A DNA stretch of 64,000 nucleotides from the NCBI GenBank assembly GCA_947034885.2, contig OX344758.2:16085067-16149066 (forward strand), written 5' to 3'. This DNA is from Thuidium tamariscinum (Eukaryota; Streptophyta; Bryopsida; Hypnales; Thuidiaceae). Below the pieces are notes generated by a model. The model was not told where the DNA came from. It saw only the letters and a program-made list of their open reading frames with translations, and made no database searches. The position numbers and the translations under genes were made by a program. Shown in pieces: positions 1 through 34,800 of this stretch (position 1 is its first letter; each line of letters opens with the position of its first letter).

Positions 1-731
1 CATGAACCTGGTGAACATAAAAAGTACCTGGGGAAATTGCTTCTCCAGGTCTTTTGCCCGTTTCAGCCAAGCATCGTTGCGGAGACGGCGCTTGAAATAA
101 TCCGCTCCTGGGTGCGTCAGAAGGAAATCCCACGAGGCCGATGTGAATCTGTGCCTTGCCTTCCAGGACTTCCAAGTACCGTCAATTACATCGCCAGCAT
201 TATCTATGACCATCAAATCGGGGTTGATGGCCATCAAATCTTGGAGCACAACTTTCTTGCGCTTCCTCCGCTCCACCCACTCCTTGTGGGTCATGTTGTC
301 CGGCACGAGAACTTTGGTTGCGGTCACTGACACCTTCGGATAAATCGCTAGACGACCAGGTGTTTTACCGAGCAGATGCACTGCGTTCACTCCGAAGTCC
401 ACGTCCGTAAAATGCCCGAAGTGCTTGAAGAACTCCCTCTTAAGGGACATGCTCTTTATCTTGAATCCTTTTTCCGCTTTGTAAGGTTTCAAGGCGCAGG
501 GGTCAATTAAGTCGCCCTTGGAGTGCTTCGTCAAAAACGACTCCCAGTGCGCCCACAGATTGTCGGGCAAGGTGATGATCTGAATTTCATTTTTCAGATC
601 TGAGGTGCCACTGATTTTAGCGCCGTCTCCCTCTGGATTTATGTTTTGAAAGCGTTCAATCACGGCATCCGCGAAATTCTGCAAGAATTGCGTAGCATAA
701 GTTGTATGACACATTTTAAGAATACTAGGAC
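1..731 (-). CDS. Unrecognised protein, downstream exon, partial at the left edge
   Basis: The minus strand is open from a stop near 738 down to base 1, about 240 codons, and runs off the window. I do not recognise the protein. It is hydrophilic and rich in Lys, Arg and Trp, with a stretch TWKSWKARHRF near the visible end. No catalytic motif stands out. The frame has a Met at 714-712, but the exon probably begins earlier, at an AG near 732 or 738. Either acceptor would match in phase a donor near 894 (AA|GTAC) at the end of the ParB-like exon, so the two most likely form one gene. The intron between them carries two copies of the 21-bp palindrome, at 733-753 and 848-868. A separate gene starting at 714 is the alternative. 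Confidence 0.5.
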
Positions 732-889
732 TTTATCCTCGATGCAGTGATACGTTCACTTTGACACAGATGTGGAACATGGAGACATCACTGCCGAAGA
801 AATAGAATTGAAATAACACCACACAATAACAAAACACAGAAGCCAACTTATCATCAAGTCGACGATGTGGGTTCTGGATGGAACTATAC

Positions 890-2386
890 CTTGTACTTCG
901 TCAGGTCGAATACTGCCTTATTCTTCCTCGAGAAGTCTTCTGTGCGCACATCCGTGGGACGCTTGTTGGTGATCCAAATTCTCCGACAGCTTACGATTTG
1001 GTTCTCCCAAGTTGGTTGGGCATGGTCCAAGTGGTTTGTACAGTTATAGTACTTCGAGATGTTACGCAACTTGTTCTCATCAAGAGACCAAACAATGTAT
1101 GCGTCCCATGTCTTCAATTCCACTTTCCTTGCTTCTCCACAGCCAGAAATTTGTAGCTCCTGCGAAGCTGTAATGCTGTGCTGCCCGTTTATAATCATGA
1201 ACTTCCCGTTCTTGATTTCGTCCCATGATTGAGGCTTCCTTTTCAGAAGTTTCTTCTTGTTCACTGGTGTTAGGCAGACTTTCTGCCGTTGATTCACATC
1301 AATCAGTTGCACGAGCTCCTTCTTCACAACATCCACAATGTCCCGCTGCAAGGTGCGAATGACATACTCAGGACTCGCTATTATACACTGTTTGATGTCG
1401 ATCTTCACAGTCTCTTGATCAAACAGAAAGCATTTATGGTGCCCTGCCCAGAAAGTTCTCTAGATTAGAGCAAACTTTTCATGCTCAGGGACCTCATCCG
1501 CAGTCGATGACGATGCAGCAGATACCGAAGTCAGAGCAGAACCAGAACTTCCACCAATAGCAGGGGCACTGATCATACTTTTCCTTCTCTTTCTGCTAGA
1601 GTCTCCCTCTCCAGATCCAGGAGGGTCTCTCTTTTTAGGCTCGGACCTTGTTTGTCCGGGCTTCCGTGGTCTACTTCCTGACCCTGTTCCAGTGAAAGAT
1701 GGGGGGGCAGGACTGTCGCTTCCCTGACGACGACCGTGCGAGTGATCGGCCGGACGACTCACTATAGGTTCCCTCTCCACGTGCTCCAGTGCGTACCGAT
1801 CCAGCGTTTGGAAGATGAGACGCAATCTTGTTGCATTTGATCTGGCGGTGCTGTTTTTCCATGGAACGTATCCAGCTTTTTCAAACTAGCTATTCAGGGA
1901 CTCCATTTGTGAGCCCTCCAAAAATGTCATGAGGTTTGCGAGATCAAAACAGCCGTGATAGGCGTTCACGTTCAGCACAATGGAGTGGCAATGCTCTTGT
2001 GGTTTTCCACTCTCATCAACCTCTCGCAGAACAATCAGAATGTAATCCTTCTGGTGCTCCTCGATGAGTGTAACCTTCTCTTTCAGATTCCAGGGCATAT
2101 ATGTATTTGTCCCTTGAACTCTATAATGCAAGTACACATAGTTCTTAAATCGGTTCACACCGAAACTCCATGTATGGATATGCGCTCTGAATTCCCACAA
2201 CGTCCCGTACGTGTCCTCCATCTCCGTGATGAAGGGCTTGTTTTGAAATGGGTTAATGAAGGGCTTAAGGTGATGAGATGTTAAGGAGTAGTCATAGCCG
2301 TCTGTCTTCTCCATATTTTTCTCCTGTGTAATGCAACATGTGCTGTTCAGTGTCTTAATATCATCGACACAATGATACATATTCAT
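890..2386 (-). CDS. ParB/Srx-like motif protein, large 5' exon with two in-frame TAG codons
   Basis: One reading frame runs from the ATG at 2386 to a splice-like AAG|GTATAG at 890 (499 codons). It is broken only by TAG at 1886-1888 and 1460-1462. Residues 1-166 form an unrecognised domain. Residues about 170-310 are a low-complexity Ser/Pro/Arg linker. The last part holds IINGQHSITASQEL (about 1190-1150), which resembles the ParB/sulfiredoxin-fold nuclease signature seen in ParB and DGQHR proteins. That resemblance is by eye and rests on one motif. Either TAG would truncate the protein, unless CAG codons have decayed or TAG is read through. The next exon (1-731) probably continues it. The upstream side (2.5-3.4 kb) is full of a 21-bp palindrome. 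The function is unknown; a mobile-element protein is as likely as a host gene. Confidence 0.5.
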
Positions 2387-2672
2387 TGTGGAAAACAATC
2401 GGTCTATGCGTAAGAAATAAGAATGACATAATTATAAGAAAAACGAAACGATAATTATTTTAGCCAATTACTCTAATGGATCTTTTATTCACGTTCAATG
2501 ATTTTGTGATGTCATCGGAGGATAAAGACACTTGCAGTAACATTTACAAGCTATGATATAGGTAGGACGTTTCACCTCTACAATAATGTCGTATGAGGTT
2601 CTTGAAAGTTTGAATTATTTCTAAGACAAGGTCTCCTACACCCAATCATGACCTCAAATCACGAGGAAACAA

Positions 2673-3430
2673 TTATCCTCGATCCGATGATAACCTAAGA
2701 GGGTGAGGACACCAGTGTCCTCGACCAGATGACAGTTTGAAAACATAAGGAAACAGTTATCCTCGAACCGATGATAACCATAGTGTTCATGAGGAAACAC
2801 TTATCCTTGATCCTATGATAACCTAAGGGGGTGAGTACGCTATTGTCGTCGACCAGATGGGACCTTAAGAACAGTTATCCTCGTACCGATGATAACCATA
2901 GTGAGGACACTCATTGGCTGAGGAAGTTCAAAACATTTTTGATTCATTAAGCTGACATTGCATTTTTGTTTATTTTTTCTTATTTTCTAATTATTACCTG
3001 AATATCACATGTTTCAACCTAAATGCGGACTGCAATTTTCTGACAGTCTCCAGATCAAGTTCTTAGAATCGTTCCGTTTGTATCCTACATCGTAGTAACT
3101 TTTCGTGGACTTCTCTACTGCACGTACAGACTTCTCATTATCATCGGGTCGACGATAAAGAGATGAGCACTGAAGAGATTTGAGAGCTAAGGGTCCATTC
3201 AATATTGGATCAAATGTTAATTTTCGGTGGCCCCTAATACTCTGTTTCGTGTTTTGACTTAGAATTTGACCAAGTCTTTCGGTATCATCGTCTCGAGGAT
3301 AATTTTTTAAATGTACGTGAGACCATACAATGACATCGTCTTATCATCGGCTCGAGGATAGCTTTCCTGGCTTCTGCAAGGCCTATTTTCTGAAATATAT
3401 GTTGAAATGTTATCACCGGTTCGACGATAC
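2673..3430. promoter_or_regulatory. Cluster of 21-bp palindromic motifs upstream of the ParB-like gene
   Basis: Eight good copies of a dyad with core TATCNTCGANNCGANGATA lie at 2673-2693, 2757-2777, 2801-2821, 2875-2895, 3138-3158, 3282-3302, 3341-3361 and 3410-3430. Weaker relatives are near 2715 and 2844. The arms match on both strands while the spacing between copies varies from about 44 to 240 bp, so this is not a simple tandem array. It looks like a set of binding sites for a dimeric protein. The cluster sits upstream of the minus-strand gene that ends its first exon at 890. Confidence 0.75.
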
Positions 3431-3449
3431 CTCTGGCACCCTTGCCAAA

Positions 3450-3525
3450 ACCCTAATTCATGTGATGTTTGTAGGGCCCCTACATCCTAAACCCTATATA
3501 TACATTTGCCTAAACCCTAAACCTC
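3450..3525. promoter_or_regulatory. Telo-box and TATA-like promoter region
   Basis: Several AACCCTA telo-box motifs flank CCTATATATACA near 3492-3502. Plant promoters of translation genes often pair such motifs. No convincing coding region starts downstream on the plus strand (3605-4450 is CA-rich with short open frames only), so the gene it would serve is not identified. It could also be decayed interstitial telomere sequence. Confidence 0.3.
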
Positions 3526-4513
3526 TGAGCACATTCTATGTTAACTTGATTCTGGACCTGCCAATTCAATTCAATTAATCAGGAAAACTAACCTCTTCAA
3601 TGAATTAGTTGCAATTTGCTTGACAAGTGCTAAATGCAAACACGAACGCTCCACAACTCCAAATTGCAGCCTGAAATGCATATAACCAAGATGAAGTCAA
3701 TATAATGTTCAAGTCAGTATAATGTGGACAATGTTCACAACAACATGGAACACAGACTGTCAACGTTCTGCACCAGTTGTATGCACACCTAAACCCTAAA
3801 GCACAAACCGAACTGAAGCCAAAATACACGATTGTACTTGAAACCACAAACCCAACTGAAATCGAAACACTACAATCACATGAAGATGCAACCATCGATT
3901 GTGCTTTCAAAATCAGACGCAGAAGATCGATTCTGCTTCCACAAGCAAACAGAACTGAATCCAACAGACCAAATTCAAGCAAAGAAATTTAAAAAAACTC
4001 CAAATGCAGCAAATGCAACAAATTCCGGAGATCTTACCTGTAAGTCCGACAATGGGTGGGTGCGACGTGCACATTCCAACGTCGCGCAACCCTAGCGTGG
4101 AGCACCGAAGCCGCAACCGTGTACTCTTCCGCCAAAGTGCGAGTGACAACTTTGTCGAAACTGCACACCTCCCCTTCACCCACGATACAACCTCGCTCGC
4201 TCACAACTCACAACTCCCACACTTCGCTCGCTCGCTCACACAGCGATGAGACACACCACACCGAATACTGAACAACAACAGCAAAACAGTAGACAAAATC
4301 ACACCTGAACCCTAAACTTCACACACACACCGCGACCAGAGCTTCAGCCACCGCTTCCTGAAACTCCAACAGAAGAACACACTACTCATGCGATCACACA
4401 GCGAGCCCTAAACGCCAAAGCACAGAATAAAAAGACGCAGGAGAAACAACACGCATGCACACATATACACAAAGGAAACAACAAACACAAAAACCTCCCT
4501 CCCCACGAGAGAG

Positions 4514-4745
4514 ATGAACTCCCGCAGCAACGCCGAGCCGCCTCAAGCCTGCCCCGAACCTACCTCGAGCCTAGCCCAAGCTGGAGACACCAAGCCTGAA
4601 CTCCCTAAGCTACGCCGAGCCTCCGCGAGCCTACCCCGAGCCTACCCCGAGCCGGCAACACCAAGTCTAAACCGACTGTCGAGCCTCCATTGCATTGCGA
4701 ACCTGAGGTTCGGTCTCCCCCGAGCCTACCATGAGCCTGCACAGT
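4514..4745. repeat. GC-rich degenerate minisatellite (GAGCCTACCCC-type)
   Basis: Short units of the type CGAGCCTACCCC recur irregularly. Open frames across it are a by-product of the repeats. From 4746 to 6520 I see only AT-rich DNA with no supportable gene. Confidence 0.5.
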
Positions 4746-6524
4746 CAGCTCCTTCAAGTGTACAAATTTTGTGTTTTTGTTCTTATTATTTAATGTACAT
4801 ACCTATTATTTAGGAAATTGCACAAGTTGCACAAGTTAGTTAGGAAAAATAGCAATATCATTTATATAGTCAAAATTATAATGTGTAAGGATGACGGTGT
4901 TCAAAACTGCAAAAGGAAAGTGAAGTCTTTCTATCTTTTTTTTGTAAGACTAATATAAGAAGTTGGTGTCTAATTAAATAGAGGTTTGAAGGGCCTTTAA
5001 TGCTTAATTCCAGTGGACTTGTAGGTTCAAAAATGTATTCTAGGATTTCCGAAACTTCGATTTGCATGGTGATTTTTTTGTCCTACATTTACTGTATTTG
5101 AAGCCAATTTTTAAGACTTCTCAAGAAAACAAAAAGTCCATCTTGATGTGGGTACAATTGTTTCAAATTAGGAATTAATAAAATCACCATCATTCTTTTT
5201 GTAGATCCAATTTTTTAAAGTAAAAACCTTTTTTTTTTCAAATTGTTGTCTACGAACTTCAAGTTAGTTAGAATACTATGATTCTAAGAATTAAAAAAAA
5301 AAGTGCACTCATAGGCAAGCTATAAAATCTTCTTTTTCCATCATAGACTATATGAATCTGCACTTAGCGTTTTCTTCTCCTCATATTCACAATTCTAGTA
5401 CATTCAATTTACACATGGTAGGGTTTAGGGTTACTTATAGGTTCAATATCATTTGGATACTACAAGTTCAATATCATTTCAACACTTTTCTCATATACAT
5501 ATTACACAAGATCTCTCCTTCACAGAGCTACAATAGCTATTCTTTCTTGTATAGACTAATTTCATTTAGCTTTTTTCCTTTCGAGTAATTCCATTTTCCT
5601 TCTTGCATCACTTGGAATTTGTGGTTTCTAATCTAATACTTCTAGTGCCGTTTTCCATAGAATTTTTGAACTTCGAGAAATAAAAATTTCAATGACTTCT
5701 TCAATTATATTGTATTGCAACCTACTTGAAGAAGACTTCATAGATTCAACTCTTAAATTTTTATGTTGAATTGTCAGCAAGTTCTATTTGTACAAGGCAT
5801 TTATTTCACAAGTAATTCCACAGCCAACTAACCTTTACGATGCAAGAAGGAAAATGAATTTGTAGTTTTTCAAGGTTGGAATTAAGATTTCAAACTATAC
5901 AAAATGAAAATAATGAATGATTGTTACGTGATTGAAAAATCATTTGTGGACCGTGCAATTCTTTCCACTTCCAAATAACCCTACAAACAGTCGTTCGGAA
6001 ATAATTGAACTCAAAAAGAGGCCTCGAATTTTCATAATCTAGGTTTAATGTCTACCAATTTTAGTAATAATTGCATGTAATTGTATGTGTATGAAAGCAA
6101 TCATACATGGCATTTCACCCACCACTTGTCATGTGCTTCATCCTTCATGAGGAAACCATCATGAGATTTATGATATTTTGAAGTAATGTTAGGACAGTGA
6201 TGATGACGAATTTTTGAGTTTATAATGCATTTCTAGGCCAATTTAGTGAATTTAGAAGGCTCTTCCCAGTCACCCACTAATTCACGAGATCATAGGCATG
6301 AATTGAATTATGATGACTAATTTTTGAATTCATCATTGAATTCTTGGCCTAATTAGTGAATTATTGGCCTAATTAGTAAGTTGTGAAGGCTCTTCCCACC
6401 TTAATTTGTGCATTACAAAGCGACTGCTTTTGGGGTTCAAGTATTTTCTAATGGGAACTCACATTTTTTTGTAGAAATCCTTTATGCAATGCATTTAATG
6501 TTGAATTCCTGTATGTTGCAAAGA

Positions 6525-6860
6525 AAGAACCAATTGTCTTATACATTTCAACGTTAATAAGATTTTTCAACACGAATAAAAAAACAAAACTTTATATAAA
6601 CCTTTAATATTCACAAACTATAAACAATTAAACGAACATTGAGTAACTAAGGTACATTTAGTAGTCGAATTCTCTTAGTCACAAAAAAAAGCGAAGAAAG
6701 AACCAGTTGCCTTATAATACATTTCAACATTCATAAGATTTTTCAACATGAATAAAAAAACAAAACTTTATATAAACATTTAATATTTACAAACTATAAA
6801 AAATTAAACGAACATTGAGTAAGGTACATTTAGTAGTCGAATTCTCTTAGTCACAAAACA
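6525..6860. repeat. Two-unit tandem duplication, about 180 bp each
   Basis: The segment from about 6525 to 6690 is repeated from about 6705 to 6860 with small differences. Both contain the same AT-rich stretch followed by ACATTTAGTAGTCGAATTC. No gene is seen in it. Confidence 0.7.
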
Positions 6861-7149
6861 GAAAGCGCAACCTTAGTTAAACTTCTTCAAAAGAGCATGA
6901 CGAAACCACAAATACTAGGCATTGCACATACAAAAGAGCCCAAAAAGAAGGAAGAGGTTGCATGTTATAAAATAGGAATTTTTAATTAAAGCAGTTTACA
7001 TTTCAAACATTTAAATTACTCATTATTTATCGAAGTCATAGGAAAGAAATGATAGCCTTGCCGTTTCCTTCCCAAAGTGCCGACCCAAAAAAAATAGGAA
7101 AAAGTAAGATGTCATAAATTATGAATGTTGTAATTATGACCATTTCAAT

Positions 7150-8400
7150 CTCAAACTTTGAAATTGCTCATGATTAACTTACCATAGTCATAGGGAAAGA
7201 AATGGCAGCCCTGCCAATTGAAAGGACCGAGGTCCGAAATGTTTTAGTATTCACGTTCAAAAAACGTTAGAAAATTGTCTACAAGTTCGAAACTCATAGA
7301 ACATTCATAATCTAGGTTCAATTTTAATTTTGTACTCAAAGAATTCCAATTTGATTTGTGACAAAATGAAAAGGGCAACCCTGGCCTTTTTTTTAAAAAA
7401 ATGAAGATCACACAAAATAATGATAAAAATTGCACGAACAAGAGATTAAAAAAAATTGGAAGAGGTTAGGGTGTCATCAAATACTCATGTCCTATGAGAA
7501 CTTCCATCTCAAATATTGAAATTGCTCAATCATGATTAACTTACCATAGTCATAGGGAAAGAAATGGCAGCCCTGCCAATTGAAAGGACCGAGGTCCGAA
7601 ATGTTTTAGTATTCACGTTCAAAAAACGTTAGAAAATTGTCTACAAGTTCGAAACTCATAGAACATTCATAATCTAGGTTCAATTTTAATTTTGTACTCA
7701 AAGAATTCCAATTTGATTTGTGACAAAATGAAAAGGGCAACCCTGGCCTTTTTTTAAAAAAAATGAAGATCACACAAAATAATGATAAAAATTGCACGAA
7801 CAAGAGATTAAAAAAAATTGGAAGAGGTTAGGGTGTCATCAAATACTCATGTCCTATGAGAACTTCCATCTCAAACATTGAAATTGCTCAATCATGATTA
7901 ACTTACCATAGTCATAGGGAAAGAAATGGCAGCCCTGCCAATTGAAAGGACCGAGGTCCGAAATGTTTTAGTATTCACGTTCAAAAAACGTTAGAAAATT
8001 GTCTACAAGTTCGAAATTCATAGAAAATTCATAATCTAGGTTCAATTTTAATTTTGTACTCAAAGAATTCCAATTTGATTTGTGACAAAATGAAAAGGGC
8101 AACCTTGGCCTTTTTAAAAAAAAAATGAAGATCACACAAAATAATGATAAAAATTGCACGAACAAGAGATTAAAAAAAATTGGAAGAGGTTAGGGTGTCA
8201 TCAAATACTCATGTCCTATGAGAACTTCCATCTCAAACATTGAAATTGCTCAATCATGATTAACTTACCATAGTCATAGGGAAAGAAATGGCAGCCCTGC
8301 CAATTGAAAGGACCGAGGTCCGAAATGTTTTAGTATTCACGTTCAAAAAACGTTAAAAAATTGTCTACAAGTTCGAAACTCATAGAACAATTTGTTTTGT
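7150..8400. repeat. 362-bp tandem satellite, about 3.5 units
   Basis: Units begin near 7150, 7513, 7875 and 8237 and are nearly identical, each containing GGACCGAGGTCC. A diverged, shortened relative lies just before (6960-7145). The last unit breaks off near 8400 into a diverged copy. Each full unit carries a 65-codon minus-strand open frame ending FEREY. Since the whole unit is conserved, I do not take this frame as a gene. Confidence 0.9.
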
Positions 8401-8599
8401 GACAAAATGAAAAGGGCTATGTTGGCTTCTTTTTTTTAAAATGAAGAAACCACTAAATAATGACAGAAATTGCATGGAGACTAGAAAATTTTGGACCTTA
8501 TGACTTTGGGAAAAAAATGCCCCGGTTGCCATCTCTTTTATCACGACTTAGCTAAATAGCTATTGTGGTGTATAAGATGGAGTTTTTCATAATGAACTC

Positions 8600-8851
8600 A
8601 ATCATTCATTCATGTTCTACAATACGCCAACTTCTTCTTGTTCTTTTTGGCTCTACGCTCTGTGCAATTTCTATCATTCAGGGTTTGTTTATTTCTTTTT
8701 AAAAAAGCCTTGCTTGTTCCTTTCATGTTGTCACAAAGGAATTTCGAATTTGTTGAGTACAAAAATAAATTTTAACCTGGTTGTGAATGATTGTTCTAAG
8801 AGTTCCCAACTTGTAGACATTTTTTTGGCATTTTGTAAACGCGGATACTAA
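8600..8851 (+). repeat. Inverted, diverged copy of the 362-bp unit
   Basis: On the plus strand a 79-codon open frame here resembles the minus-strand frame of the satellite units: both read LSTK followed by a Leu/Asn-rich stretch, then LVD, and end with an aromatic residue. This places a diverged copy in opposite orientation about 250 bp from the array. From 8860 to 9720 I see nothing but AT-rich DNA. Confidence 0.5.
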
Positions 8852-9734
8852 AACATTTTGGACCTTATTACTATGAGAAGGAATTGGCAGGGGTGCCAAT
8901 TTTTTTCCTAGGACTTAGCTAATAATTAGGCAATTGCAATGTGTAACATGAAGAGTCTAATTTTGGCATTGCACTTATATTTAGAACAATGTATCTACGA
9001 AATACAAAAAGTTTTCCTTAACGAGTGATACTGTTGCTTTTCGGTAAAAAATAATGAACAAAATAAAATACCCCCGGGATTCTAATACCTATAACTCAAC
9101 CCTCGCATTCAAAGACCCCTTCAAGAATATTTAGAAAAATAATAGAGTCCTCTGCCATTTGAAATAGTTCAAGACTATGTATTTTGAGAGTTTGAAATGT
9201 AATTTCCTAAAACTATAGTTCATCCTAAACATGGACTTGCTTAAACTATCCTATATTCTTTGGGCCTTTTGGATATAGATTCATAGAAGACAATAGAAAA
9301 TTTGGACTTCAATTAAATTAATTAATCAAATTTCCTATACTTTTAAATGTAAATGACAAAATTGGCAATTTTAAAGGATAAAATTTGAAAAAGAAAAGAA
9401 ATGTTTCCATTTGCAGGCATTTATAAATGGATTTTAACGAATTAGATTTTGGAAAGAGTTCTCAAAAACTACTCCAATTAAAAAAACTACAATGAATAAA
9501 TAATTTTTGAACTTCAAAGTTCAATTCTTGGGCATTATAGAATGAGACTTCAATGAATTATAGTTAGGAAAGACTTGTATAGAATTACTACAACGGAGAA
9601 GAGTAAAGTAAATAAATATTTATTAGCTTTGAAAGTTTATTAAACATTAACGTTTTGAAATGAATTGGGATTTAGGATTTAGGATTTCTTATTATTGAGA
9701 GTCTTAAACCGAAAACCTCATTTTGAAGCCACAT

Positions 9735-9930
9735 GTCGCTAACCCTAACCGCAAACCCTAAACCCTGAAGACCCTAAACTCTGACCATGGAAGCTTGAAA
9801 TCTCAAAACATGACCTAAAACCGTGACCATAACAGTGCTAAACCCTTAACCGTAGCCCAAAATCTGATCCTAGGAACCTGAGAATCATGAAAACTTAACC
9901 TGATACCCAAATCCTAAACCCTAAAATTTG
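9735..9930. repeat. Degenerate interstitial telomere-type repeats
   Basis: Scattered AACCCTA and AAACCCTAAACCC motifs, mixed with related CCTGA/CCTAA variants, fit the plant-type telomere unit TTTAGGG in decayed form. Confidence 0.55.
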
Positions 9931-10606
9931 TAAAAGGGGACTCTTACATTTTCAAAGGGTTCTGAAATGTGAATTTACGGAGTGGATTTCCAAAAATTTC
10001 AAGGAATCCGAAACTCCAACCCCAGATGTCAACGTTCACCATTTATAGTAGACAGTTGTAACTTTTAAGCTGTCAAAAAATAGTTTTTCCGGACTTTGCT
10101 GCCTCAAAGCTGACAGAAGGCATTACGAAAAGTTCGGCCAAGTTGCATGAAATGACGGGGTAGGGGACGCCGACCTACAAAGAATTCAAATTCAATCCGT
10201 TGCGCGCTCAAAATTTCCCGCCCTTCTTTTCATCTGCAGGTCCAAAGCTAAGCTACGTCGCACAAGAAATCGCTTCTTCTTGTCGTTGTTTCCACACACC
10301 ATGCCGCCGTCGTTCCCCTTTTTTCTTGTTGTGGCTTGCTGTTTGAATGTTTGAAACAGAATGGAGTATTCTTAAGTGAAGATCCTTCCCTCGATTGCTA
10401 GCAGGTACGCCGACTTTGATAATCACTTATTTGCATAGTATGCAGTGTTTTGTGTGGATGCTTTTGTTTTCTGTGATCACATTGTATTTGTAGGTCAGTG
10501 TCAAGGGAGTTTTTAGAGTGGTCGATGATTTCTGCCCTGCAGTTTTCTCCAACCTTTTCGGCGCAATTTGCGGAACCCAACATTGTGTGTCACTGATGGT
10601 AATAAG

Positions 10607-11481
10607 GTATCATCGACTCGAGGATAATGTGTGCTTATGCATTATCCTAGAGGAATCTTTTTTATCGTTGTGTCGACGATAACTTACCCAGTATCAGCTC
10701 ACTACATCTAGACGCTCAGTACATCCAGATCGCTTACTATGTTTATCCTTCGTAATCCAACCAAGATGTTTGAGGTACATTATCGACAATATAATAGGTC
10801 AGTGTAGAAGTTGAGGACAACTCTGTAATTCTTATCATCGAGTCGAGGATAACTTGTCTTCAGAGATCCTACTGGTTTGTAGTTGTTGCTGACGGAGTGC
10901 TCATTATTTTTGTACCGTTTCCTGCGTAGACGATGCAAGTGCGAATTTCTGATTTGATGTAGAAATCTCTTCGGGTACATAGATCAGGGGATGATTGACT
11001 TGGAATGATTTAGGAAGTATCATCGAGTTGATGATAAGCTTTCTTTTATACTAAGATATTAATGTAAATCAGGATTATTGTATATGAGGAATTTTTTTAA
11101 CATAACAGTATCCAGTAATGGACAGAAGGGTTTCGATTTCTCTTCTGTGTGTATCATCAAGTCGGTGATATCTATGTTTCTTGTAGTCTTGTCCTTGACT
11201 CCGAGGAGACCTAGGTCCTTGATGTTTGTAGGTCCTTCATGGTTATGATCTTTGTGGCTTTATCATCGAGTCGATGATAGTTACATTTTCTTCATGATAG
11301 TGATGCAGTTGTTTTCTCTTGGGATGGGAACACCATCCCTTTGTGGATGTTCTGAGGATGGAGTTTGCTAGTTGACCAATCAGACTTTCTTTCATGAAAG
11401 AACTCGAATGACTTATGAATTACAATAACAAGCGTGACTATGAAGAGTGTGACGAATTCCTTATCATCGAGACGACGATAT
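10607..11481. promoter_or_regulatory. Second cluster of the 21-bp palindromic motif
   Basis: Copies lie at 10607-10627, 10662-10682, 10832-10852, 11017-11037, 11151-11171, 11260-11280 and 11461-11481, with the same TATCNTCGANNCGANGATA core as at 2.7-3.4 kb. The last copy lies in a probable 5' intron, about 30 bp before a TTTTTTGCAG acceptor next to the ATG of the 11.5-14.4 kb gene. The stretch just before the cluster (10,200-10,330) is comparatively GC-rich and could hold a 5' UTR. Confidence 0.75.
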
Positions 11482-11514
11482 TTAATCTCCCTCTTTGGAT
11501 TGCTTTTTTGCAGA

Positions 11515-14376
11515 ATGGATTTTCATGGTCCTGAGGAATTTGCAACTCCAGTCCCCACGCTTCCAGATGATGTTCGGTTGTGCGAGGGGATCCCTCGTGC
11601 AAAATGGGTCTCTCAGTCTGTTACCCTCCAGAATGATGACGGGGTGGATATTGCCAGAGGTGTCTGTCAGAACGTTGATTCTGATTTGGTTGTTGACCAC
11701 GACGGGAAGTCACTCGGTGATGATCGAGTTGCTATCCAGATTGCAGAGTCTTTGAATGAGGAGCTCTATTCTTCTGGGAACATGTGGTCGCTACGCTCTT
11801 GGCACATCAGGAGAGTGTTCCTTTATGACGGAGCCTCATTGTACGATAACGATCAGACGCACATATACCACACGGCCATTAACCCCTCAAGTAGAAGAGT
11901 TCGAAAGGGGGTTCGTTCATATGAAACAAGTCGTGAAAGGGTTGAACCTGAGGTTCTTCCTAAGAAAGAACTTCTTTTGACTATGGAATCAATCACTGCA
12001 GTTTCTACTAAAATATGTTGTGAGATGAATTGTGTGCAACCTTTTCCACGTGCACAAATACAGTCAATACGGACTGAACTGTATGGCGGAGATGACTTCA
12101 AGGCTCGTAACAAGACGCTTCTAGAGGTACATAGGCAAATTCACAAAGACGATAGAGGCAAAGACTAGATAACTTTGAAAGGTAGAGAAGTGTGCCCTAC
12201 TGCTTGGTGGATTATTCATGGGATTGCAAAGTGTACATTCTATAGGTACAAGGGGAAAGCAAGAAGTGGGGAGCAAGCAGAGGTTCATGGGAATTTGGGG
12301 AGCAAGAAGCCTCACAAGCATACTATTCAAGCTATTGCCACACTTCGAACACTTATAGAGTCGGATGCTGATCAGATGCCACACAAGACTAGAACACTTG
12401 AGTCTGGAGAGAAAGTCACCGCAATGGTTTTGCCATCCTCGTTCCGTTGGAGTGAGCAATTAGAAGAAATCAATGCTTCCAATGCGATGTTGGATCTGCC
12501 ACCAATATCTTCAAGTGGTTTGAGTAACATTCGTCGTGCTTCTTTTCCTGAATATGCAGCAAAGGCACGTGGAGACACCTTTGCTCGGTGTGGAGTGTGT
12601 GACACCTACAAGCAATTAAGGAAAGCTTGTGTGGGTGCTGAGTCAAAATTGAAGTGGACCAATCTTTATAAAACTCATAATCAAGGGCAAGAAGCTCATA
12701 GGGAATACTATTATTCCAATCGACGCACTTCAACACTACAACCCGAGACGATGTTGTGCATTATTCACGATAAGATGGATCATTCAAAGACAGCTTCTCC
12801 TCACTTCTCTCACAAGACCAAAGTGACAGAATCCTTCATGAAAATGCCTGTAGCAGTTACAGGTATGATTGCTCATGGTCATGGCGACGTGCGATATGCA
12901 CACTATGGATTAAGTATTTATCCAACAGATTCAAATCATACTATTGGATCAATTGCAAGATTATTGCGTGATTTGGAAGGAGCGCCCAAGAATTCATCAC
13001 GCATATTATTTTCTATTGAGAGGGACCAATCAACATTGACAAAAGCACTTCTAGATGGAGCAGAAACTTGCTTGGACTCCCTCCTCCCACCTCCAGAAGA
13101 ACCCCTTCCAGCTAAACCTCTTCCTCCGGTGTTAATATTGCAATTAGACAATGCTTTAGGAGACAACAAGAACCGATATGTTTTTGCTTTTTGCTCTATG
13201 CTTGTCTGCAAAGGCATTTTTCGTGAGGTGTATATTAATTTCCTCATTGTAGGACATACGCACGAAGACATTGATGCTCTTTTTGGTCGTTGGAGCTCGA
13301 GATTGAAGACAAGTAGCTATCCAACACTTCCAAGACTCATGAAGTCATTTATAGATTGTGAAACGCACCCTGTAATTCCTCATCTCATTGAGGAAGTTCC
13401 TGACTTCAAGGCATTTGTACAAGGGTACTTGGGCACCGGAGGGGATTTTTTGGGGGGGCATTCTAGAGCCCAGCAGTTCAAGTTTTTCATGGATCCAAAT
13501 GGATGGCCTCTGATGGAGTATAAAAATTTGTGTAATGATCCTAAGTGGTTGCTAGAGGATGGTAAGGGGATTCAGTTGTGGTCCGAGACTGAAGATGGGC
13601 TTCCTATAGTGTCGAGTGGGAATCCTCGACCTCTTGTTCCAGAGAAGATGAAGGATCTTGAACACGTAAAAAAGGGATTGAATGGTTTTGTTGCGCATTG
13701 GAAGAAAATGTCAAATGACGATTACACAAGAGAGTTCAGGCGGAAGAATGGTGCCTTAGAAGATTACTGGAAGGGTGTTCGGGCGGCTCTAGATGCACCT
13801 CTTCAAGTGCGTGAAGCATTACTTGATGGGTTTTGGCCGGCTTCCCGGATTGCTCCGGATGAGACAAATTGGATGCAAAGAGATGGCACATTGCATGAGG
13901 AAGACGCAGAAGATGCGCCGTTCGTTGGACGTAGACGTGATCGTCCACGTCCTTCATTCCGTGTTAATGTTGATACGCATGAAGGTTCTTTTATTGCTGT
14001 ACGTCCAGCTCATGGTGATCCTAAACCATTTTGGCTTGCTAGGGCCATTACGGCTCCGAGTCCAGATCCAGGGCATATGCATATGATCCGAATTCAATAT
14101 TGGACGCCTGCCTCAAATCGGCACATTAATATGGATACATATGCGGGATGGGACACAAAACAAGGGAATGTGTGGCGTGAAGACACCATGATTAAACCAA
14201 CATGGTCTAGTACGGGTTGTATCCTAACGGCTTGGAAGCCTCGTTTCCGAGAGAACACTAAAAAGCCGAAAGTATCGATTCCAAATTTACAAATTGGCAT
14301 CATTAAGGCATCATTGGCGGCCTTTGCAATTGATGAGCACAACGATGAGGAGAATGAGTCAATGGAAGAAGAATGA
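11515..14376 (+). CDS. Large transposase-like protein with VGHTHEDID motif (DUF7869-like)
   Basis: One frame runs from the ATG at 11515, directly after a TTTTTTGCAG acceptor, to TGA at 14374-14376 (953 codons). It is interrupted once, by TAG at 12166-12168. A CGVC zinc-knuckle-like pair lies near residue 359. QLDNALGDNKN lies near residue 543 and VGHTHEDIDALFGRWS near 579. The spaced acidic residues within a predicted alpha/beta core recall RNase H-fold (DDE) transposases. By memory the HTHEDID motif marks the DUF7869 family, which is found in many repeat-rich plant, animal and protist genomes. The C-terminus is acidic. Terminal inverted repeats were not found, so it may be a mobile-element gene or a domesticated one. 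The upstream palindrome cluster links it to the ParB-like gene. Confidence 0.7.
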
Positions 14377-15087
14377 ATATTTTGTAGTTGTAGCAGTAGG
14401 TTTTTGTTGTTGTATTTCGAACACTAGATCGTTTTTTCGTATTGTAGTTACAGGTTATGAGAATGATATTTGCATACATATATAGTACAAGTCAGATATG
14501 AATATGTCTTTAGCCACACTATAGTGGATATGTATTAAATTATGATTTCTATTAATAGTACTTATATATTTTCTACCTTTACATCTTCCTATTGTATGTT
14601 GAAAAGATTTCTTATATCAATGTAGGAATATGTGACAAGTTTAAGGAGTGAAATTGTGAAAGTGTGATATCATCAAACTTCACATGTGTGTTGTAAGAAG
14701 TACAAGTCTCCATTAAAAACATTAAACTTGAAAATGTTTTGAGCTATTTTGTTTACTTATAATAAATAATTAAAAGAAGAAATATAGATGTTGATAGTGG
14801 ATATTTATAGCTTGTAGAAATAAAAAAATATTTAAAAAGAATAATTCTTGACACTCGTAAGTCTCAATTTAATGAAAAGTCTCAATTTAATGAAAGCTTT
14901 TTAGGCCTTAAAATAGAAAGTTGTTAAAATGAGACTACACTTTGTCTCATTTTAACGAATAAGGCCTTTAATATTGTTCACCAATTAAATTAGTTTTTGA
15001 AAATTACAAAAGGGGAGGGGGACTGCGAAGACATGCCATGTGTCCCCCTTCCCATTGATGAAATTTAATTTAGTTGATTTGGTTTTG

Positions 15088-25541: not shown

Positions 25542-28500
25542 TCAGTAGCCTGCTTGAGCTAATAGATTATCTTCCAGGGACAATTCTATTGTTCCTACTA
25601 GATTCACCGTCTCTGGAGGATTTGGAAACCTCTGCGGAGCTATTAATCCTTCGCTCTCTACTGTAGTGGTAATGAATGCGTCAACTGTCTCTGCAACTTC
25701 TCGTCTAACTCTGGCTTCTTTGTGTAACACCACTTTCCAACCAGGTCTATCGGAGATATCTAAAAAGAAGACTTGGGTCGCCTGGCTTGGGAAAATGAAT
25801 GGGTCTGCCATGCGAGGCAGTTTGTGGCGGAAGTTCACTACAAGGAAACCCAACTCGTCTCTGGTATACGTCTCATTTCCTCGATTATCTTGCCTTTTCA
25901 CCCACTCGCAGCGTAGTAGAGTGATTTTGGTGGTGAGTGCACCATAGTGAAGTTCTAATATGTCTTTCAAGACTCCCACGTAGTTCACATTGGATTCCTT
26001 GACTCTTCCTGATGGCTCACGGAATATCGAAGCCACGCCGCTGTTGGAACTCAATACCTGTAGCGTACTGTCATCTTCCACACGGAAGTGGTTACCAAAA
26101 GCAATCATGCATGCATATCGAGTGGCTCTTTGTGCCGGCCTCTTGCTCATGAGGAACAGGTCCATGTGCTCTGGATTACCCAAATCCAACTCAGAATCTT
26201 GCTCAGTCCTCTGAATCCAATCTGCTAGTGCAGGAGTACTTTGATTCACTTCTGATTTTGACCTCCACTTTCTGAAAGAAACATTGGCATACAATGACGA
26301 TAAGCACACGAGACTATTTCAGCACATCTTATTAGAGGAGCAGTCTTGGTAACGCTTAATATAGTACTCTGCCATACTCGTACTCACTACTAACTTGCGC
26401 GTCACTTATCCTAGTGACGAAAAAGTCATTCTCTAATCACTTATTGTACACGTGACTTAAAAATGACTTCATGGTATCTGCAACACTACTACAGAGCCAG
26501 GTAGCACAGTTTTTAAACTTAGCGTCTTATAGACAGCCAACTTTGAATCCATTGAATGACACCCTCACAATGGCATGCAAATCCACTGAAAGAAATACAA
26601 ACAGTCGCATTTTTATCAATTCTAAGATGTACCGTTCACATTTCAGCACCACATTTTGGATGTGCAGTGCTCGTCTCTGTCCCTATATTACTTTCGTCAT
26701 GCTCATACTGTAGCGACTTCTGCGTCACTAAACCTAGTGACAGTAAAGGCATTTGGTAGTTAGTTGGTGTCAACATGACTTACAAGTCACTTACAAATGA
26801 CTGAATGGCGTCTGGAATACTACTGCAAAGCTAATTTCCACTATTTTGAGACTTAGCAACACAGAGAGGTCATGGGAAAACTTACGTGACTAAAACCTGC
26901 ATTGTGGAAGAATTTAAGAGCACATATTGGTGGGCTAGATCTCTGAGTTCAAGACTCATTACATATGGCCTTCTTGCCCCTTGTAGAACCTCCTCTGCGT
27001 CCCCATATTCTTCGTCTTCATCCCATACGCGTCTTTCAGTGGCCTCAAATCTATGGAGGTATTCGGTAATGAATCCTATACATTCATCTTTCAAATATCC
27101 CTCTGCCATAGAAGCCTCAAGTCGGGCCATGTTTCGGACATGGCTCTTCAATACTTTCATGTATCGTTCCACTGGGTACATCCACCTTGTACTAACTGGA
27201 CCACACAAGTCCAGCTCCTTCGCAAGATGGTAGGGAAGATGGGTCATGATATCAAAAAAAGATGGCGGAAATTCAATCTCCAACAGCGCCATGCTTTCAG
27301 CCGCATCTGCTTCTAGGGATGGAAAATCAGCGGGGTTGTACACCTTCGTTGAAAGGCGGCGAAATACCTTGCACATTCTCATGACAGCCATACGAGGTCC
27401 AGTTTCCATTAGCCCACGGAGAGCCAGTGGCATCACTTGTTGCATCAAAACATGGTAATCATGGGACTTCAATCCGCCAAAGTTTTTCTTGCAGATGCAC
27501 TTCTTGAAGTCAGATGAGTATCCAGTGGGCGTTATTAATGCCTCAATGCACTTCGCAAACTTCTCGAACTCATCATCTGTCAACACATAAGATGCATGAG
27601 GCTTCACCATCTTCCCTGCTTTGCGTGGATGCGGCGTCAGCCACAAGTGTGGCCTCACTTTTCGCCTCTGCAAATCCCTTCGGACTTTCACAGAATCTTT
27701 CTTCCCTGTTATGGTTTTTAGGAAGTTCTTCGACAGGTTCAGTTTGCAGTGCATGAGATCCAGCGTGTATCGAATAAAAAGGGCCTGAAATTATACACAG
27801 GACATATAGGATCAGTACATTGAATATGTTTAGAAAGTCATGTCTTCGAGTCACAAAGAAGTCATACTTTATGACTTCAGGATAAGTAATACTACTTTAT
27901 TACTCCAGGTCCACTTCTCGCTAACTCTACAGTCACATTCAAGTCATGTACAAGTCATTTTTCATCACTATGTTACTCAGCAGTCACTCACCTTCCAATA
28001 CGGCAAGCGAAAAAGGATACTCAAACGTTTAAGGCCAAATATTTTTGATGGGTCCCCTGCAGCTCCATCTCTGTTTCCAGCTACTTTCCACGCCTCGCAT
28101 TCCAATGCATGACGTATTTGCTCCTCCATTGTGACTACGCGTGGTTTAGGGCGGTTTTCGATTTTTCCATCAAAATGGTTCTTCATCTCTTGTGACATGT
28201 AAAGATGATTTTCGGGGAGCCATCGACAAGTCCCACCGTACGTTTGCTTACCCAACTCGGTAGAATGCTCTGCGCCTAAATCCTTGCCACACCATGGACA
28301 TGCTGCGTATCCTTGATGGGCAAAACCTCCTACGGTGCCATAACCTGGGAAGTTGTGGATAGTCCACACCAACATGGCCCGCAATTGGAAAGCCTGAGAG
28401 CCTACATCTTTTGATACATCGTATGCCGGAACTCCAGACCATAATTTCAACAACTCCTCCACAAGAGGCTCCAAGTACACGTCGAAGACATCAGCAGTGA

Positions 28501-29752
28501 CGGATTCTCTCCCTGGAATCAAAAGAGCCAACATAATAAAAAACTTCTTTGTACTCAACCATGGAGGTAAGTTGTAATTCAACAACACTACGGGCCACGT
28601 TGACCACGAGGATCAGTTCTGCGCGTAAGGATTTACTCCATCCGTTGCCAAGGCAAAGTGAACATTGCAGTCATCCTTTGCAAAAGAAGGATCCACGTTT
28701 TCCTCAAAATGCTGCCACGCTTTGGAGTCGCAGGGGTGTTTGACAAGGCCATCCCCCCCCTCTCGGTTGCTTTGGTTCTTTGCATGCCACACCATCAACT
28801 TTGAAATCTTTGGACTCATGAACATTCTCTAGAGTCGTGGAACAATCGAGAAGTGACGGAGCACCTTCAGTGGGAAGCTACGGCGATCCTCATTGCGGTA
28901 CCTACGACCACCACACTTTGGGCAGCGGAAGAGATTCTCATGAGGTCCATGGAAAAGGATGCATCCACGCTCACAAGCATGGATGGTGTTATAAGTCAAC
29001 CCCAATTTCTTGGTAAGTGACTTCGCTGCATGATGGATTTTTGGCAAAGTATTATTTTGTGGTAGAAGATGGGAATGTAGTATGCTGAAGAGTTCATTGG
29101 AGAACTGGTTGCTGACGCCGTGTACAGTACACAAGTTCATCAGTAACACGGTTGCTGCGAGCTTGCTACTCCGAGAACCATCGTACAAGTGCTCCAAAGA
29201 TTCTTCCAGCACCTTAGCATCGAAATTTGGGTCACCATCGCCAAAGGCTGTGTCCACATCGGGAGGTTCTTCATCCCGACATTCTACCTCCTCTACATTG
29301 TCGGCACTACCTGCTTCCATGAACTCTTCATGAATTGAGTCCGCCGTGGCAAAAGCGCCAGACACCTCTTCTTGGACTCTCTCCAAGACAAATGTTGTAT
29401 CGCCATGAGGTCGTAGTACTTGGTTGACCATCCCACGAGTATCAACAGTGGCGTCAACATCTTGTGATTCTTGTTCTCCCGTTCTCCAAAATTGTTGCTC
29501 CCACTCTTCATCCAAGGAATCTCGTGCACTCGGACCTCTCCACATCCTGCAATCCGGATATCTTCCGTAACGGATTAAGTACTCCCTTACATTGCGGATA
29601 AAGAGCTTCTTCCTGCCTCGACAATTGGTGCAAGGGCATTGTAATTTCTTCACATTGAACTCTATGGCCCATTGCACCTCTCGGGTCCATAGGCGGTCAT
29701 CTCTTAGCCGTTGCCTCTCATCGTCAGAGAGTGGCAGTCTACTTGGTAGCAT
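25542..29752 (-). pseudogene. CACTA/En-Spm tnp2-type transposase (three exons, two nonsense codons)
   Basis: The three-exon model fits in phase. Exon 1 is 29752-27992 (donor AAG|GTGAGT), exon 2 is 27784-26886 (acceptor TTTCAG, donor CAC|GTAAGT) and exon 3 is 26271-25542 (acceptor TTTCAG, TGA stop). Exon 1 carries the CPC..C transposase-associated zinc motif (residues about 37-45), an acidic linker, and the tnp2 core with the CPWC knuckle and NLPPWLS. Exon 2 carries DUF4218, with the WMYPVERYMK segment. Exon 3 carries DUF4216. Two in-frame stops lie in exon 1: TAG at 28829-28831, where relatives have Gln or Lys, and TGA at 28613-28615. It is therefore probably dead, though otherwise full length. 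Both introns (207 and 614 bp) are rich in AGTCATT motifs. Confidence 0.85.
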
Positions 29753-30268
29753 GTCTCTTGAGAAAACCTGATTGATAGGAACGCACTAAGTTCACGTAGC
29801 CAATACACGCTCAGTACTTTGATAGAAGGTCCGCCGTAACGTGGAAGCCTCCACGTATTTATGACTCCTGAATGTCTTTCAGTACTCCAACTCCACTTCA
29901 AAATGACTCTTGTCACTGCTGCATGACTACAACATCACAAGACTCCACTGATAAATGACTTGCATGTACATGCAGAGTGCCAATTGAATGCACAGTACAT
30001 TCTAGCTATGCCCATGATTTCAAAACTCAAGAAGACCCTACAAGAAGGGCATACTGTAACACTAATTCAACAACTTTTAATTCAATACAGGGTTGCTTCC
30101 GTCGCGTCACGTCCGTGCGTCAGGATGTCCGTCCGCTGACGTGACGGGGAGCCGAGCGTCCGTCAGGATGAAATTCACGACAAAATCCGCGACAAAGGAT
30201 GAAAAATCGTCGACAGGGCCGTCGACGAGGCCGTCCACCGTCGACCGGACCGTCCAGGATAGAATCGA

Positions 30269-31829: not shown

Positions 31830-34800
31830 TGTGGCAACCTAGAATTCACCTAAGCAGGTTCTTAAGCAAAATACGGGAAGAGGGATCTATTCAATCCCCA
31901 TTTTTTTTGTTGTTTTCTTAGTTTCTACACATAATTGGGACCAAGACCGGAAACCGGAAGACCCTAGACCGTAAACCAGAAACTACGTTAAGGGACAGCG
32001 TATGAAATCCCGGATTCCGCCCACCTAGCGACCGAGACCGGATAGGTAATGAGTGGCTACCGAGTCTAGAGATCGTCGGGATCTCTCCCATGTGACCAGA
32101 CTGGTTTAAACCTAACGGTCAGTAATTAATGCCGGGGGAAAAAGTATAAGACCAGGGAAGTAGGGCCAGGTCCTGCCACTTTCTTGCACGCAGTTCGAGA
32201 AAGGGTTTCCGGCCAGAGATAGAGTATTCGGTCTACAGACAGAGAGAAGGGATAGATAAACTGTCAATCCGGTCTGGTACATAGTTGAGCGAATAGCACT
32301 ACGCTAGCTGACAGGTTCTTGAGCGCGGGAGGTTTAGTTAAGTTGGACCGCGCCTAGATTGTGTAGGCGTCAAGTGAGAGATGGCAGAAGAGGTGCAGGA
32401 AGGAAGGATTCTAGCCTTCCGGAATGTGAATCCGGTCGTGCCAACTGACGCACAAGACAAGAGGGAGCTGGAGGAAGACCTCAGGCAGATGGGCTGCGAG
32501 GGGTTCATAGCTCACCCCTGGAACCTGAAGGATGAGGCGATGGTGGAGGAGCTACTGGCCGGCCAGACCAACGAGTGGAAAGGGACGGTCCGGGCGCTGC
32601 CAAAGGAGTGGAGTGCAGCAATGTGGCGCAAGGTGTACGCCTTCGAGCAAGGAGGAGATGCGACGGGCACCCGGACGGACAAATTCCACCAAGGGAAGTT
32701 CCGCAGGCCCACCAACCCGAAGGACGGCTTTACAGTAGCAGAGTGTGTGTCTGCTAGACACAAGAGGCTACTGCGGTTCATGATGGCGATCTTGAACCCG
32801 GATAGACCTAGTAGGATTACGGTCACCGTGGCCAACACTGTCTTTGGTGCACTGTCGGGAGACAGGAAGATAGATTGGGGGTTAGTTATGAGGGACCGGA
32901 TGGACCGAATGGTGAAAGGAATTGGGAAATCTAAACCCTCTCCCATTTCACCATTCCTGTTTCATCTGTATCATTCGTTAGACCTCTTGAGAGAGAAGGA
33001 GATGGAAGCTTACGAGGTAGGGGCTGCATTGATAGAGTATGAGATTGCAGACCCGGAAGCGGAAAATGACCAAGATGAGGAGGACTCCGAGGATGAGAGT
33101 CAGGAGGGGCATCAAGGAGGCACACAAGAAGTAGAGGAGGTTCCAGAGGTAGGAAGAGAGGATCCACCTCTAGAAACCCCTGTAGTAGCCGGGGAAGCCC
33201 AAAGGTTAGATCCGGTCTGGGAACAGGATCCCTTGCTAAGGATCCTGCGAGACCTGGAAGATTTCAGAAAGCACCACCTAGAGGAGAGAGGGTTATTACG
33301 GGCCATAAGCCAAGCCTTAGGCTCTATTCCCCCCTCCAAGATCATGGAGGTGTTGGGAGAATTGATTCAGGAGGCTCATGATAGTCGGGACAGAGAGGAG
33401 GTACTCCGGCTAACAAATCAGGTCTCAGCCCTGAGGAGGGAGCTCCATCACACTCAGGAGGAGCTGGATGAAGAGAGACGCCTCACCACGCAGGCCCGGA
33501 ACACACTCGGAGAAATCCGAGAGTTCATCACGCATCCGGGTGAAGTCGTCAACAAAGCCATGCTTTTCGACAGGAAGGTCTTGGAAGCAGGCAAGATGGT
33601 GGGTCCTCAGATGCTTACAGCTCTGGTGGCCTACAACAAGAAAATGGAGGCAGCGCTGGAGAAGTGGCGGTCAGTAGTCACGGAGGTCCAAGCTAGTTCT
33701 GCTCCAGTCTCAGGACCGAAAGAGCCAAAGATGGAGAAGGAACAACCGAAGGATCAGCCACCACTAGCAGCTGTCGAGGTAGAAGCCGGCATATATGAAC
33801 CGGCGAAGGAAGAGGGAACCAGGACCGACGCAGTGGAGGAGGAATCTGTCCCACCGGCCCGGATTGAAGAGCCCAGGGTTTCTCAACCCGAGAAGACCAA
33901 GGAGCCGGAACCCGAGCCGATTGTGTTGAGGGAGATAATCCGGGGAACTACACCACCAAGGGAGAAGACCAAGTTCATCACCTTGTTGGATGATTCTCCA
34001 AGCAAGTCATCACCCACGGTCATCACACAACCAAAGACCGGAGGGGAAGCGAAGGCAACGGTGCAGGTCCGCTCTATACTGAAGACCGGATCTGGATCCG
34101 GGTCACCAAGCCAGGGACCAGCCCGGACTGCCGAGAGAGTGGGGGAGCAGACCCCGCAAAGCAAGATAGTGCACCACCCGCCCATCACCGGATTCAAGAA
34201 GAAGACCGCGGAGACATCCAAGGTGAAGCGGAAGGCCCGGGATGAAGAGGAAGAGGAGTCAGATGAGGAAGATGAGGACTCGGAGGAAGAGACCGACTCC
34301 GGTGATGAGTCGGAACAGTACTCAGATGCGGACCAGGCATTGGCAGAGACCACGAAGACCAGGGCCAGGGCGCGGGGTAAGACCAAACCGAAACCCAAGC
34401 CCATCAAGATGTACCGATCTCCGAAGAAGCAGCCAGCCCGGAAAGGTGCGTCGCCTCTTAAGAAGGCGAGGAAATAGGGGGCATTAATTACAGGTAGATA
34501 GGAAGGCGGCTAAACCAAGTTATATTTAGGTTAGGAACTTTTGAACTTAGACCGGATCCAGATATGTAGGATCTGTGATCCTATTTTGTTGGTATTTTTG
34601 TAGTTTTGTGGAAGTCAACCTACCCAAGTTGTAGAGGAATGTGAGGTGGCATTCTTGGCGGCTGGTGTTGATTCCATTTGCACTTTTAGGTTTTCTTGCA
34701 GTTTAGTATTTAAACCCGGTTCGTAATTGAATCCGGGCGCGCATTATGTTATCTTACTTTCACAAGTTTTTGTGTTGCAAATACAAGTCAGAACCTTTTC

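Follow-up and report, generated by a model that had tools for sequence, protein, structure and literature searches.

A palindromic dyad repeated at the gene starts of a large five-gene DNA transposon family in the moss Thuidium tamariscinum sorts by element lineage

Clustered palindromic sites beside the gene of a partner protein are known from ParB/parS, and the TnpA protein of En/Spm binds repeated subterminal sites of its own element and acts on promoter silencing. In the transposon VANDAL21, passages of PMC5735166 report that VANC21 binds short motifs of C and T type, located within VANC21 and VANB21 introns and ahead of the gene VANA21, that the motif variants are enriched in the family and evolve together with the lineage, and that VANC proteins reduce methylation. 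For the Sola superfamily, passages of PMC10741241 describe a DDD transposase, 4-bp target duplications, terminal inverted repeats (TIRs) of 11-1124 bp, an occurrence in a moss, and element sizes mostly of 2-9 kb with some over 15 kb. Here, we analysed a 64,000-nucleotide stretch of Thuidium tamariscinum (assembly GCA_947034885.2, contig OX344758.2, positions 16,085,067 to 16,149,066 of the forward strand; hereafter the window), in which a palindromic sequence, the dyad, is clustered. These dyads belong to a family of DNA transposons of 17-23 kb with 24-bp TIRs, 4-bp target-site duplications and five genes, A to E. We found no description of this element in the literature searched, which covered large moss transposons, Sola, phosphatase-bearing elements and element-encoded binding proteins.

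The dyad reads (T)TATC-N-TCGA-S-TCGA-N-GATA(A) and occurs at 19 places, all within window positions 734-11480, in a scan of the 64 kb on both strands with up to three mismatches; the 37 strand-matches compare with 0.96 expected by shuffling (largest value 5 in 100 shuffles). The original prediction had listed two, eight and seven copies of a 21-bp palindrome and placed none elsewhere in the 64 kb. All of these sites were found again, with true coordinates shifted by one, and no match lies in 11.5-64 kb; its figure of at least 17 copies holds, but sites at 2359 and 2716 (the latter weak, with 3 mismatches) had been overlooked. The arms are palindromic, as it described; at the two ends of the 21-mer, the outermost T and A show only partial conservation. 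It was also right that the dyad is not a satellite: the spacing is irregular, the sites are dispersed over gene starts, and the N base tracks the element lineage. The window showed neither tandem repetition of the dyad as a unit nor a regular head-to-tail arrangement.

The ends of the transposon are well defined. Its TIR is AAGGCCWTATTCRTTAAAWTGAGA, and the right-end sequence recurs inverted at the left end of copies on contig C1. Three full copies measure 22,538, 18,692 and 17,734 bp, and target duplications (GTAC, TACG and TATA) were identified in 3/3 copies read at both ends. The exact TIR occurs 369 times genome-wide (reversed control, 0), and the first 100 of these ends include 23 neighbouring plus/minus pairs no more than 50 kb apart, 19 of them spanning 17-23 kb. 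The window aligns with C1:2.84-2.86 Mb at 95-97%, and an abrupt right end at window position 14968 is common to three aligned copies. The window copy itself is decayed and left-truncated, its true left end being lost. Two genes previously proposed as possible parts of one mobile system are two of the five in a transposon bounded by TIRs and target duplications. The features of the window copy are as follows.

1-14968: portion of the element covered by the window; the copy extends upstream by about 3.07 kb, to C10:16081996, and this extension contains gene D and a gene E stub
1-714, minus strand: gene C, N-terminal part, a 466-aa open frame running beyond the window into the upstream stretch
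734-867: two sites (734-752 and 849-867) between genes B and C, within the short gene C leader
884-2320, minus strand: gene B, with invariant IINGQHSI and NxTNHL motifs and two in-frame stops near 1886 and 1460
2359-3429: left site cluster in the gene B leader, with sites at 2359, 2674, 2716 (weak), 2758, 2802, 2876, 3139, 3283, 3342 and 3411
10405-11513, plus strand: putative intron in the 5' leader of gene A, with the seven right-hand sites inside it, donor AG/GTACGC and acceptor TTTTTTGCAG just before the ATG
10608-11480: right site cluster, with sites at 10608, 10663, 10833, 11018, 11152, 11261 and 11462
11515-14376, plus strand: gene A, a DUF7869 protein (PF25273, E 2.7e-44), with an in-frame TAG at 12166-12168 in this copy
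14860-14944: subterminal repeats at the right end, GTCTCAATTTAATGAA, which are akin to the inner TIR sequence and distinct from the dyad; candidate end-binding repeats of the transposase
14945-14968, minus strand: right TIR, AAGGCCTTATTCGTTAAAATGAGA as read on the minus strand, forming the right element end

Diverged copies keep one gene order, in which E, D, C and B run leftward and A runs rightward. DUF7869 was the sole significant family for gene A (E 7.2e-45 in the copy C1_972), which carries the conserved motifs HDKMDHSKT, LQLDN and VGHTHEDIDALFGRW; three acidic motifs are kept in 4/4 aligned copies, and its product is probably a DDD transposase. We could not find relatives of gene A in the viral contigs or prokaryote genomes searched, nor a paper on DUF7869 in the literature searched. 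Gene E encodes an NLI-interacting-factor-like (NLI/FCP1-like) phosphatase domain (E 5.5e-16). Genes B, C, D and E1 had no reliable family match in Pfam, nor B in NCBIfam, and none of A, B and C drew a credible hit in PDB profile searches. Gene B had been labelled ParB-like. This label lacks profile support and was rejected at the level of sequence profiles: ParB is absent from NCBIfam matches and from the Pfam matches of seven gene-B members at E<=10, where the only hit was DUF3939 in one member (E 0.081), and the best PDB match was to an acetyltransferase (E 0.52).

The element genes are under purifying selection. Identity to C1_972 across lineages is about 40-41% for E1, 44-55% for E2, 37-51% for C, 30-56% for B and 47-76% for A, and 29-34% for the N-terminal 106-141 aa of D. 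For five pairs, dN/dS was 0.12 (A), 0.14 (C), 0.38 (D) and 0.20-0.21 (E2); in three wider pairs (A, B and C) dS was saturated, and pN/pS was 0.19-0.33.

We identified further copies by scoring the best 61 of 917 gene-A candidates genome-wide. Over 330 nt, the gene A copy at C2:19.31 Mb does not differ from that at C4:2.02 Mb, which suggests recent movement. Two full-length elements with equal gene-A scores lie in opposite orientation, 16.5 kb apart, in C2:19294865-19350142, perhaps through a recent local jump or duplication. Contig C11 (17.5 of 363.2 Mb) holds an excess of copies, 18 of the best 61, and is perhaps a sex chromosome or another repeat-rich contig. In the middle of the window copy (7144-8389), a 362-bp unit is present in 3.5 tandem copies that are 98% alike.

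We additionally identified a 255-bp non-autonomous family, of which L025 4439-4693 is one copy and 40 were scored; it shares the element's TIRs, has 4-bp duplications and carries a single ancestral dyad. Judged by eye, an exact 4-bp duplication flanks 17 of 20 distinct insertions (L040, L042 and L050 fail; L053 repeats L048 and was not counted). In an alignment of 20 of the 40 scored copies, kin of the first copy included, with the first copy itself, one site or its remnant stands at the same place in 21/21 copies; neither of the CpGs of the dyad survives in 16, one survives in four, and both in a single copy that was found via its site.

The genome-wide scan proposed in the original prediction, run with the exact pattern, placed the motif well beyond this locus, and most of the matches examined lie in or near one mobile-element family. 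The exact dyad has 1,533 matches per strand in the 363-Mb genome (19 contigs), against 0 and 1 for the reversed control. From C1 to C6:18.37 Mb, 98 of 123 exact symmetric sites lie no more than 25 kb from an exact TIR end or a listed transposase, and such sequence makes up 2.6% of this region. Conversely, 23/24 listed transposase loci lie no more than 22 kb from a site belonging to one of the three classes counted. Ten element stretches examined, some partial, hold 142 sites (up to two mismatches) in 156 kb and the remaining 94 kb examined hold seven, one in a 255-bp derivative and six at C1_1990, counts that describe anatomy and not rate, as the loci were picked for sites or transposase. The flanks of these ten element stretches yielded no site.

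The N base of the dyad sorts by element lineage. The half-site, TATC-N-TCGA, comes in two SPECIFICITIES, V (N = A, C or G) and Y (N = C or T). With both halves counted, the V-type lineages are C1_283 (A17 C14 G8 T1), C1_1643 (C13 A11 G8) and C1_2263 (G14 A7 C6 T1), and the Y-type lineages are C1_972 (T18 C14), C1_712 (C5 T5), C1_715 (T12 C8) and C2 (T20 C1 A1), while C1_2208 uses C only (C29 G1); the window copy and C9, both close kin of C1_283, are excluded from this count. The concentration of the base by lineage (112.9) exceeds the shuffled maximum of 84.1 in 5,000. Genome-wide exact counts with a C or G centre, from which the G/G and C/G classes are excluded, were T/T 179, C/C 292, A/A 124, T/C 88 and A/C 86, with T/A at 5; a prediction made after these earlier class counts, that T/G would be rare and A/G common, came out at 10 and 85. 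If the halves combined freely, about 298 T/A, 457 T/C and 381 A/C would be expected; that T/C and A/C also fall below these figures we put down to the C-only elements.

The same sorting is seen in clusters of neighbouring sites. Pooling T/T, A/A, T/A, T/C, A/C, T/G and A/G sites over contigs C1 to C6, with C6 covered up to about 18.4 Mb, gave 67 clusters; a T half-site occurs in 30, an A half-site in 39 and both in two, against 38.4 mixed clusters expected by shuffling (minimum 28 in 3,000). In the symmetric classes alone, from C1 to C6:18.37 Mb, no cluster has both T and A, and the concordance of sites within one cluster is 0.72 against 0.38 shuffled (maximum 0.53). In a gene A tree (330 nt, 25 copies), with types taken from nearby exact symmetric sites or from examined copies, Y-type copies are found in two places, alongside V-type copies within one group and in a distant clade, C1_9.72/C1_7.17; the copy C3_27.63, labelled C, has A/G sites nearby and is hence V-type. 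On the simplest reading, the site type would have changed at least twice.

The confinement of the motif to the surroundings of two genes, as first proposed, proved too narrow, with sites in the leaders of A, B, C and D and in the coding sequence of gene D; a third gene, C (minus strand, ATG 712-714), begins beside the 734/849 pair and had been missed. The proposed position beside splice acceptors may hold for genes A and B, whose sequence fits it. In nine copies compared for the A and B leaders, several of them close relatives, the nearest site ends 27-41 bp before the gene A ATG in seven, beside a conserved AG, and at 128 and 220 bp in the other two; in the window, the last site (11462) ends 35 bp upstream. 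An AG directly precedes the gene A start codon in 9/9 copies. In 6/9 copies a site starts 39-50 bp ahead of the aligned gene B start; in the others the nearest is at 161 or 354 bp, or none was called.

Within the coding sequence of gene D, two in-frame sites lie at homologous places and in one frame in 5/5 lineages, reading Y/H-P/R/C-R-V/L-E/D-D, with CGA at 9/10 of their arginine codons compared with 26/138 overall in these frames. Four further matches near the 5' end of the gene D open frames, in mixed frames, probably lie in leaders. Site bases are more alike than the flanking 60 bp on either side in 7/7 pairwise comparisons (site/flank likeness 0.75/0.51, 0.93/0.62, 0.79/0.42, 0.69/0.43, 0.59/0.48, 0.67/0.43 and 0.70/0.48). 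The sites in register in the seven comparisons were 7/12, 5/7, 6/11, 4/10, 0/6, 5/10 and 2/6; as register between lineages is only partial, sites also come and go. One leader, in C1_2208, has a local array spaced at about 90 bp.

On balance, the second alternative of the original prediction, one mobile system whose own protein binds these sites, fits best, and we favour the reading that the dyads are the cis half of a self-recognition system, in which a homodimer made by the element would bind them and activate, or release from silencing, the element's own genes. The dyad symmetry suggests a homodimer, and the sites at gene starts suggest co-regulation. Because one nucleus, with one set of host factors, contains two near-exclusive site types, the reader would most simply be an element protein that changes together with its sites. 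We infer that this protein is most likely B or C, both conserved orphans, binding two TATC-N-TCGA half-sites as a dyad. Binding at the gene leaders and at the gene D coding sites would switch on or de-silence the element's genes together, and as the CpG-containing sites decay at their CpGs in the 255-bp derivative, an anti-silencing effect linked to methylation is plausible. Element lineages would have moved between V and Y half-site specificities, the sites of each element sharing its lineage type.

Several observations weigh against this self-recognition reading. In the region from C1 to C6:18.37 Mb, 25 of the 123 exact sites lie more than 25 kb from any exact TIR or listed transposase; one of these outlier clusters, at C1:22.09 Mb, is a diverged element with a one-mismatch TIR. 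C1:19907001-19927000 has six sites (up to two mismatches) and no detectable element gene or TIR; it may be a lost relative of the element, or host genes with the site. Its six dyads form two groups about 10.5 kb apart. Profile searches recognised no DNA-binding domain in B or C, and single-sequence AlphaFold gave unusable models (mean pLDDT 32 for A, 735 aa, and 33 for the B C-terminus, 191 aa); a PDB fold search with the low-confidence gene A model returned 0/284 matches at E<=0.001, and none was used. The sites within an element are partly duplicates of one another, so that their counts are of non-independent events. The V/Y rule is strong, not absolute: two clusters of the 67 are mixed, and on C7, C9, C10 and C11, outside the 67-cluster count, there are a few places where T-bearing and A-bearing sites are neighbours, such as C7:17808514/17808556, C9:19755794/19757340 and C10:11077957/11078412. 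Complementarity of the two N bases within lineages is slightly high (66 v 54.5, p 0.005), where a freely variable N predicts none. Finally, deep nodes of the gene A tree are weak (0.49-0.53), leaving the number of V/Y switches uncertain.

The dyads might instead be the transposase's own binding sites for synapsis or transposition, much as subterminal repeats serve in CACTA elements. Of the element's proteins, the transposase alone is sure to need element DNA, and the 255-bp derivative, which shares the TIRs, keeps its one site or remnant in place in all 21 aligned copies; both CpGs are intact, however, only in the copy that was found via its site. In the three full copies, roughly the outermost 3 kb at each end is free of sites, the ends carry another repeat (GTCTCAATTTAATGAA), and sites stand instead at gene starts and within the gene D coding sequence. 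The TIRs, moreover, are near-identical between V- and Y-type elements, yet the dyad base differs. We consider it unlikely that the dyads serve the transposase.

It is likewise doubtful, and perhaps slightly more so, that the dyads are bound by a protein of the host, be it a transcription factor or a chromatin protein, and that the element has merely accumulated host sites. Palindromic GATA- or TCGA-like dyads are bound by host factors elsewhere, such as DREF in flies, and the C1:19907001-19927000 cluster is without a detectable element gene. A single nucleus with a single set of host factors does not readily account for near-exclusive V and Y types (5 T/A sites against 179 T/T and 124 A/A; 2/67 clusters mixed), nor for the lack of sites in the flanks of the ten element stretches.

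We give an equally slim chance to an action of the repeats in RNA, where a hairpin near the leader-intron acceptor would control splicing of element transcripts. The short distances before the gene A ATG (27-41 bp in 7/9 copies) and the gene B start (39-50 bp in 6/9) fit such a role, as does the complementarity of N5 and N15 in 66/107 sites (31.5 expected). Stratification by lineage cut this excess from 34.5 to 11.5 sites, by about two thirds, leaving some excess within lineages (66 v 54.5). A hairpin is harder to reconcile with the 41/107 non-complementary sites, with sites in coding sequence, with the lack of a clear sense G-U excess (9 G-U v 11 C-A at N; other pairs 35 v 27, p 0.37) and with a centre of little strand preference (sense G 54, C 39).

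Finally, that the clusters are functionless local duplicates homogenised by gene conversion, as the array in the C1_2208 leader and the partly kept register might suggest, is very improbable given sites more alike than their flanks in all seven comparisons, irregular spacing in the window, recurrence at several gene starts, and in-frame copies with fixed synonymous bases in gene D.

The rest of the window holds other features. A further NLI/FCP1-like phosphatase domain lies at 48745-49668 (PF03031, E 3.5e-06), with two similar large open reading frames on the same strand at 32378-34474 and 43517-45067; together these are possibly a second repeat family with such a phosphatase. Remains of CACTA/En-Spm type occupy 25542-29782 on the minus strand (DUF4216, DUF4218 and Transposase_21, with Transpos_assoc below the curated cut-off). 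A SET-domain protein on the minus strand at 59435-60232 (PF00856, E 1.3e-17) is likely encoded by a host histone methyltransferase gene, and telomere-like AAACCCTAA stretches are also present.

To our knowledge, VANC in Arabidopsis is the one case known in detail of a transposon that de-silences its own kind without waking other repeats. We regard the chances as even that the moss element represents an independently evolved self-recognition, probably anti-silencing, in a five-gene transposon outside Mutator, with two near-exclusive specificities, a dimeric protein of a new DNA-binding family, and sites that changed in step, including two in coding sequence. If so, a second, unrelated element would point to repeated evolution of self-specific activation. 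A single genome would then offer dozens of natural variants in which to follow the joint change of specificity in a protein and its 15-20 scattered sites, and functions would be indicated for the orphan proteins B, C and D, with a role for DUF7869.

Compared with known systems, the likeness to ParB/parS lies in clustered palindromes beside a gene whose product, B, has a vaguely ParB-like NGQHS motif; here, in contrast, no ParB profile matches, and the sites lie in leaders and coding sequence of a eukaryotic transposon. The TnpA sites of En/Spm are subterminal, whereas here the ends carry another repeat and the dyads stand at gene starts. Compared by description with passages of PMC10741241, the element resembles Sola in its 4-bp duplications (3/3 full copies; 17/20 derivative insertions), its 24-bp TIR and its size, 17-23 kb being in the rare upper range; the five-gene content and the dyads are absent from those passages. 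VANDAL21, as described in passages of PMC5735166, is like the moss element a multi-gene plant DNA transposon with short motifs, at gene introns and upstream, that track the lineage. Its motif is a 9-mer in single-orientation arrays, mainly non-coding, whereas here a CpG-containing dyad of 19-21 bp also occurs in coding sequence. The moss element is further set apart from VANDAL21, by description (PMC5735166), in having a probable DUF7869 transposase and 4-bp duplications; no MULE transposase, as in VANDAL, was matched in gene A at E<=1, DUF7869 being the only match. By analogy, VANC21 and VANDAL21 would be the closest precedent for the self-recognition proposed here.

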